NCBI GenBank assembly: GCA_013695175.1
Contig: JACDAZ010000509.1
Coordinates: 1-10,662 of the forward strand
Source: Flavisolibacter sp.
Lineage (GTDB): Bacteria > Bacteroidota > Bacteroidia > Chitinophagales > Chitinophagaceae
DNA length: 10,662 nt
Direction: 5' to 3'
Position 1 is the first letter of the stretch; each line of letters begins with the position of its first letter. The position numbers were made by a program, and so were the translations under genes. The notes below the pieces were generated by a model. It worked only from the letters and a program-made list of their open reading frames with translations. It searched no databases and was not told the DNA's origin. Below, piece by piece: positions 2,788-2,853 of this stretch.

Positions 2788-2798
2788 TTACGGCATAC
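2781..2798 (-). promoter_or_regulatory. Perfect 7-bp hairpin with GNRA loop, overlapping leader ORF stop
   Basis: On the minus strand GTATGCC and GGCATAC flank the tetraloop GTAA, giving a perfect 7-bp stem with a GNRA-class loop. The 5' arm is made of codons 19-21 of the leader ORF and the loop contains its TAA stop, so translation to the end would open the stem. The following bases (TTTAGTTAATCC) are not a good T-tract, so it does not look like a simple intrinsic terminator. A competing 6-bp pairing is possible between TGCCTT (2808-2803, codons 16-17) and AAGGCA (2789-2784). A role as a switch in attenuation is inference. Confidence 0.7.
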
Positions 2799-2853
2799 AA
2801 TAAAGGCAGCAACAAAGTAAATTAAAAGAGTTTGTATATGGTCTTGACTTCAT
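2788..2853 (-). CDS. Polycysteine leader peptide (21 aa), probable cysteine attenuator
   Basis: A 21-codon ORF runs from ATG at 2853-2851 to TAA at 2790-2788, in the 5' leader of metY. The peptide begins MKSRPYTNSF, and residues 11-21 read NLLCCCLYCMP. Three consecutive Cys codons (TGT TGC TGC, 2814-2806) are followed by a fourth Cys and a Met at codons 19-20. The predicted promoter -7 element ends only 8 bp before the ATG, so the mRNA would be leaderless or nearly so. The Cys run lies just upstream of a perfect hairpin whose loop holds the stop codon. Polycysteine short ORFs that act in cis as cysteine-responsive attenuators are established in mycobacteria. By analogy, ribosome stalling here under cysteine shortage would raise metY-osmC-metX expression. 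The peptide itself probably has no function. Position, composition and hairpin together make chance unlikely, but expression is unproven. Confidence 0.72.
   Translation of the reverse strand: MKSRPYTNSFNLLCCCLYCMP

Follow-up and report, generated by a model that had tools for sequence, protein, structure and literature searches.

Leaderless ORFs rich in cysteine codons have reportedly been described in mycobacteria, by Canestrari in 2020. Poly-Cys leaders also appear, in the excerpted text of an earlier study (Seliverstov 2005; PMC1262725), ahead of the cys operon of Mycobacterium and Propionibacterium acnes and ahead of cbs in Bifidobacterium longum, and excerpts of a further paper (PMC13236596) refer to a study of the mycobacterial poly-Cys leader. 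In the Rhodobacterales, a motif termed uORFC-8-2 is found before cysS; it contains tandem Cys codons, and attenuation by Cys-tRNA is proposed for it (PMC8632094). For the Bacteroidota, hints of attenuation by leader peptides ahead of operons for amino acids are reported in Flavobacterium psychrophilum (PMC9723704), and the same has been suggested for small ORFs (sORFs) of Bacteroides thetaiotaomicron (PMC7366714); the excerpts of these two papers name neither a Cys leader nor metY.

Here, a short Cys-rich ORF ahead of metY-osmC-metX in Flavisolibacter sp. is compared with these systems. The Bacteroidota leaders resemble those of the Actinobacteria, as the latter are described in the excerpts, in being short ORFs with a Cys run near the stop codon, located ahead of sulfur genes and lacking a conserved terminator hairpin; the ORF of the present locus has the mycobacterial type of Cys run, a CCC triplet plus a fourth Cys. 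They differ in belonging to another phylum, in targeting metY (and cysH), in having Met codons mixed in with the Cys codons, in enclosing the stop codon in a hairpin in one layout (class A, below) and in adjoining a SAM-I riboswitch in another (class B). They are also unlike uORFC-8-2, whose consensus, in the excerpt, comprises two Cys codons, two stems and a U-run, and whose target is cysS of alphaproteobacteria. As in amino-acid attenuators generally, codons of the pathway are clustered in a short upstream ORF, and these codons are kept as the rest of the ORF varies; a terminator with a competing structure, another mark of such attenuators, was not found in the window.

The SAM-II riboswitch of Sinorhizobium metA also has an AUG nearby that is not used for metA (PMC9373788); this AUG1 is in frame with metA and unused as a start in its natural context, and the excerpt has no Cys leader. 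Sensors of this type are known; the novelty lies in the phylum and target, in the combination of Met with Cys codons and in the association with SAM-I. Neither a Cys leader in Bacteroidota nor a SAM-I aptamer serving a leader ORF was found described in the accessible portions of the open-access literature.

The leader ORF and its gene neighbourhood

The window, meaning the whole stretch of 10,662 nt that was analysed, is an entire contig (JACDAZ010000509.1) from a 3.2 Mb draft assembly with 547 contigs and a completeness of 92% (GCA_013695175.1). The features under discussion are as follows.

5478 to 2917, minus strand: PEP carboxylase gene, which stands ahead of the leader ORF
2869 to 2862, minus strand: TAAATTTG, an exact TAnnTTTG read in the sequence, ending 8 nt before the leader ATG
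2853 to 2788, minus strand: leader ORF of 21 codons, MKSRPYTNSFNLLCCCLYCMP, a complete reading frame with an ATG start
2814 to 2806, minus strand: Cys triplet (CCC) read in the sequence, leader codons 14 to 16
2799 to 2797, minus strand: fourth leader Cys, read in the sequence as codon 19, with Met as codon 20
2798 to 2781, minus strand: 7-bp hairpin GTATGCC-GTAA-GGCATAC, spanning the Cys-Met-Pro-stop codons, with the stop codon within the loop
2707 to 1385, minus strand: metY, O-acetylhomoserine/O-acetylserine sulfhydrylase (PF01053; TIGR01326 above cut-off), the first gene behind the leader
1356 to 901, minus strand: OsmC-like gene (PF02566), the second gene behind the leader
890 to 3, minus strand: metX-like homoserine O-acetyltransferase gene (PF00561), truncated by the end of the window

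The first-pass annotation of this DNA, made from its letters alone, had pointed to a complete minus-strand ORF of 21 codons with CCC, a fourth Cys and a Met close to its C-terminus, to an exact TAnnTTTG element 8 nt ahead of its ATG, to a stop codon lying in a hairpin loop and to a distance of about 80 bp from the next gene. All of these elements are present as described, and the leader ORF and the metY ATG are 80 nt apart. The metX-like fragment matches TIGR01392 with an E-value of 1e-89, yet falls under the cut-off of that model. An OsmC-like gene between metY and metX is also seen at a second locus (L024; loci are given L numbers), and at L007 and L031 metX directly follows metY.

TAAATTTG matches the TAnnTTTG consensus of the -7 element. 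A clear -33 element was not seen by eye in the window. The fold of the window's leader is ordinary (z -1.5), with 17 of 200 shuffles folding equally well or better, and so the case rests on comparison. A scan of the window against Rfam at the gathering score gave no matches, T-box and every other family included, and no tRNA was found in it. The SAM-I riboswitch (RF00162), which is found before metY in many relatives, was found neither in the window nor in the window's genome. Runs of four Cys codons were matched 55 times on the two strands of this genome, and the reversed pattern six times.

Recurrence ahead of metY in the Bacteroidia

Upstream regions of metY were gathered from related whole genomes (20 of the 58 searched gave a match), from named genome contigs (the best 80 of 536 matches, many of the nearest to the window's MetY being labelled Chitinophagaceae, which suggests that family for the window) and from a class-wide set of 296 genomes, of which 65 had a close metY (E-value of 1e-140 or better) and 64 loci were read. 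A pool of 166 loci was reduced by the removal of nine duplicates to 157 distinct upstream regions, the window included. The loci are interrelated, and the p values given throughout are uncorrected for relatedness.

Taken by itself, the window's ORF might be dismissed as a functionless chance frame, having 21 codons, four Cys and an ordinary fold. Across the Bacteroidia, however, an ORF with at least four Cys in ten residues was found in 81 of the 157 distinct metY upstream regions in the sense direction, against 5/157 on the reverse strand and 10 of 1570 dinucleotide shuffles. With at least five Cys in ten residues, the counts were 57/157 sense, 0/157 antisense and 1/1570 shuffles. The shuffle and reverse-strand counts reject the chance reading, as does the placement of covariance-model matches described below, leaving it a negligible probability. 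The leader ORF is not a product of chance.

Aligning metY upstream regions of related genomes had been suggested in the first-pass annotation as a check, the expectation being a short ORF with consecutive Cys codons and a variable remainder. This pattern was recovered, and it extends beyond the lineage of the window. Conservation itself was borne out in part: the 81 regions noted above carry the Cys-dense ORF, and the other 76 of the 157 fall below the threshold, among them L003, L005, L017 and L019, which belong to the window's genus. Of 85 loci without such a leader (duplicates kept), 31 have a SAM-I aptamer within 700 nt of metY, so that SAM-I is frequent, too, where the Cys leader is missing.

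In many relatives the leader stops about 70 to 165 nt ahead of metY. The Cys run recurs at the C-terminus, the Chitinophagaceae leaders frequently terminating with a motif like CICCCCCMP or CCCICCMP, and the N-terminal parts are widely different. Both Cys codons are used in the leaders (TGT 303, TGC 167). In the dense stretch, 18.9% of residues other than Cys are Met, compared with 3.4% in the N-terminal part, an enrichment that in class A stems partly from the ATG of the hairpin itself.

The high density of Cys would also suit a functional small peptide, binding metal or thiols, that stands beside metY by coincidence. Against such a peptide, the N-terminal parts are widely divergent, the dense stretch is rich in Met as well as Cys, and the covariance-model matches lie almost always before metY and nearly always once per genome (see below). 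We regard a functional peptide as highly improbable.

Conservation of the hairpin

Among 35 aligned Chitinophagaceae leaders, 91.3% of the hairpin cells are paired, compared with 88.4% in column shuffles, none of 500 of which reached as high a value; when the hairpin partners are slid against one another in the same alignment, pairing falls to at most 42.7%. Two-sided changes occur in four cells, in four of the seven pairs, an outcome that 2 of 500 shuffles match. On longer alignments RNAalifold gave less: in class A just part of the known hairpin was recovered, and in class B six weak pairs and nothing more.

A covariance model combining the Cys codons and the hairpin was used to search 244 genomes of the family and gave 40 matches in 39 genomes (E-value of 0.01 or less). 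Thirty-seven of the 40 lie before metY, and 38 of the 39 genomes have a single match. Among the first 30 matches, 29 are before metY and the remaining one, L125, sits at the edge of its contig, where the start of metY adjoins it; among the other ten, seven are before metY and L137, L140 and L141 are elsewhere. The training set of the model overlaps some of the genomes searched, and its sensitivity is therefore not an independent measure, whereas the specificity of place is still informative.

So strongly is the hairpin kept in class A that it might have been conserved as a site for a protein or ligand, with the Cys run as a by-product. The ATGCC-type hairpin is, however, a feature of class A (25 of 34 loci by pattern), and Cys runs are found also in the other two classes and ahead of cysH. 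Conservation of the hairpin alone is thus a very unlikely account of the locus.

Three layouts of the leader region

The leader-bearing loci were sorted into three layout classes, a total of 82 loci that were assigned partly by hand, with some class A members placed by name. L018 and L181 were excluded from the class counts, and L159, L166 and L179 were added.

Class A, the type seen in the window, has its start close behind the -7 box and comprises 34 loci. A TAnnTTT[AG] box precedes the ATG in 32 of them, at a distance of 10 nt or less in 18 and of up to 40 nt in the other 14. With 8 nt between box and ATG in the window, a near-leaderless start of the leader is plausible here and in class A, judging from these spacings. 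Where SAM-I aptamers were found in class A, the distance from their end to the ORF is 130 to 465 nt or exceeds 1.3 kb. By eye, the -7 box often lies inside an imperfect palindrome like CCTACTAAATTTGTAGG (e.g. L006, L023, L043, L046 and L054), which is possibly the site of a regulator. One fixed form of the palindrome, allowed up to two mismatches, gave no match as an operator elsewhere in four genomes.

In class B, also with 34 loci (ten numbered families of the class-wide set contribute 22), the leader adjoins a SAM-I aptamer, as detected with RF00162 plus a model of our own. An in-frame leader ATG lies 6 to 11 nt after the aptamer in 28 of the 34 (median 9 nt), and the start codon nearest to SAM-I is that of the leader ORF and not that of metY. 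Because class B is defined by the nearness of aptamer and ORF, this spacing is conditional, and a count over all 87 SAM-I loci (duplicates kept) is fairer. Among these, the first ATG in any frame falls 5 to 16 nt after the aptamer in 48, of which 32 open a frame with at least three Cys in ten residues and 16 open a frame without. At some of these 16, such as L150, L151 and L158, a Cys-poor ORF with no Cys run begins at +9 after the aptamer; these leader ORFs may sense something else or may have decayed.

The 14 loci of class C have no adjacent SAM-I as judged by the script, a count that includes L160, though its ORF starts 6 nt after SAM-I and it really belongs to class B. Class C leaders contain more Met codons, with a mean of 3.64 in the last 20 residues compared with 1.56 in class B (Mann-Whitney p 8e-5, relatedness uncorrected).

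Some loci were seen by eye to be more elaborate. At L152, L153, L161 and L168 a second ORF rich in Met and Cys lies between the first leader and metY, and at L161 each of the two leader ORFs seemingly has its own terminator. Two recurring hairpins follow the leader stop at L173, L176, L182, L187 and L188, one closed by CACGT/ACGTG; the second approximates GGATA/TATCC at L176, L182, L187 and L188.

Terminators and pairing of the Cys codons

No terminator was found between the leader and metY in the window. Behind the leaders of class C, terminators were detected at 10 of 14 loci, compared with 8 of 56 shuffles. The same scan gave 5/34 in class A (7/136 shuffles), 10/34 in class B (20/136 shuffles) and 24/82 in metY regions without a leader. 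Since regions without a leader also have terminators at this frequency, terminators distinguish class C alone, and the counts do not support intrinsic termination as a general mode of output in classes A and B. In an earlier scan with looser settings, 13 terminator-like sites had appeared among the 43 rows first called class A; three of these, L013, L014 and L021, were later placed in class C.

An upstream segment competes with the terminator in four of ten class C loci tested (L014, L161, L165 and L197; p<0.05). In L165 the segment that pairs with the terminator's 5' side comes from the last part of the ORF (p 0.02), and in L197 from just past the leader stop (p 0.003); similar segments seen by eye in L199 and L174 were not significant (p 0.13 and 0.21, respectively). 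As judged by eye, the Cys codons of L161 fall partly within its competing segment, and the sign of the response would consequently be reversed there. The outputs of class C thus look like an intrinsic terminator, some with a competing upstream segment, and for part of class C only do we suggest, from these predicted pairings, transcription attenuation of the classical kind.

The same Cys sensor could act on translation. In mycobacterial poly-Cys leaders the Cys tract is said to fold onto the beginning of the gene that follows, which a stalled ribosome prevents; by this account the free Cys codons would fold onto the metY start. The lack of a detected terminator in the window fits such an output, and in some class A rows (for example L026, L054, L065 and L085) the Cys codons pair best with the metY start itself. 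Between the Cys codons and the stretch reaching to the start of metY, however, pairing does not exceed that of shuffles in the 43 rows first called class A (mean z -0.03, with 2/43 at p<0.05), and we consider a translational output of this form rather unlikely. For 11 Cytophagales-like rows the corresponding values were a mean z of -1.85 and 5/11. Pairing with the 60 nt after the stop codon, calculated for 89 leaders, shows a small excess in each class (mean z -0.76 to -0.97), and 20 of the 89 reach p<0.05.

Leaders ahead of other sulfur genes

Poly-Cys ORFs are also found at cysD loci, where at 7 of 30 they lie 51 to 74 nt before the gene ahead of cysD (antisense 2/30).

L250, L254, L256, L258, L259, L264 and L266: poly-Cys leaders of the cysD loci, about 820 to 945 nt before cysD

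Two of the seven genes behind these leaders were checked and are CysH-type APS/PAPS reductases, and the others are alike in their first residues. The cysH-type leaders mostly have no Met codons, and such codons are rarer in them than in class B and class C leaders of metY (p 0.004). One genome of the window's genus, G014, has leaders of both kinds, L004 before metY and L266 at the cysD locus. Before cysK there was no excess of Cys leaders (2/30 sense compared with 3/30 antisense). Judging from their sequences, the leaders before cysH possibly extend the system to a Cys regulon. CysD had no match in the window's own genome (G000; assembly 92% complete), and the organism may be without sulfate assimilation, subject to the completeness of that assembly.

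Proposed mechanism

The ORF of the window is most probably the leader of a ribosome-mediated attenuator of metY-osmC-metX, responding to Cys or to Cys and Met. A cysteine-responsive leader had been the reading of the first-pass annotation, and the recurrence of Cys runs before metY supports it; from these runs we infer regulation by cysteine. The pattern goes further than that annotation described, with SAM-I adjoining the leader in other families, leaders at cysH and additional Met codons in loci that have no SAM-I next to the leader. Translation of the leader and stalling of the ribosome are predicted from the sequence, and the direction of the response is drawn by analogy with classical attenuators.

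In this attenuator, the ribosome would start at the AUG near the 5' end of the transcript and read into the Cys codons of the leader, so that expression of metY-osmC-metX would be set by the supply of charged tRNA-Cys and, in many relatives, also of tRNA-Met. When Cys-tRNA is scarce, the ribosome would stall at the Cys codons and the RNA downstream would adopt a form that permits metY expression. When Cys-tRNA is plentiful, the ribosome would reach the stop codon inside the loop of the hairpin, keeping metY low. The candidate outputs in the window are transcription termination, Rho-dependent or other, and metY translation.

In trp superattenuation, a leader that goes unread leaves the genes off. 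The position of the SAM-I aptamer in class B suggests a similar arrangement, in which binding of SAM would stabilise the aptamer beside the leader AUG and so reduce translation of the leader. The leader being unread, metY would be off, and it would be turned on only if SAM and Cys were both low. This gating of the leader by SAM is proposed from spacing.

More tentatively, and with somewhat less than even confidence, we propose that metY across the Bacteroidota may be run by a composite element, in which the start codon of a Cys/Met leader would serve as the expression platform of the SAM-I aptamer. SAM would decide whether ribosomes are loaded and the charging of Cys (or Met) tRNA where they stop, making an AND gate for two metabolites. 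Where no aptamer adjoins, the Met codons of the leader would sense methionine, or a near-leaderless Cys leader would act alone, as in the window. Together with the cysH leaders, these elements would form a sulfur regulon directed by the ribosome.

Significance

Control of sulfur amino-acid synthesis at the level of RNA is hardly described for the Bacteroidota in the excerpts of the papers found. A Cys leader that recurs before both metY and cysH is a sensor that can be tested directly. If the proposed arrangement of class B is true, SAM-I would control a second sensor rather than the gene, joining SAM and Cys on one transcript. Collectively, the leaders suggest that Bacteroidota gauge their supply of cysteine and methionine by means of a ribosome reading a short leader, and many of the sORFs found ahead of metY in Bacteroidota probably have a regulatory role and are not noise.
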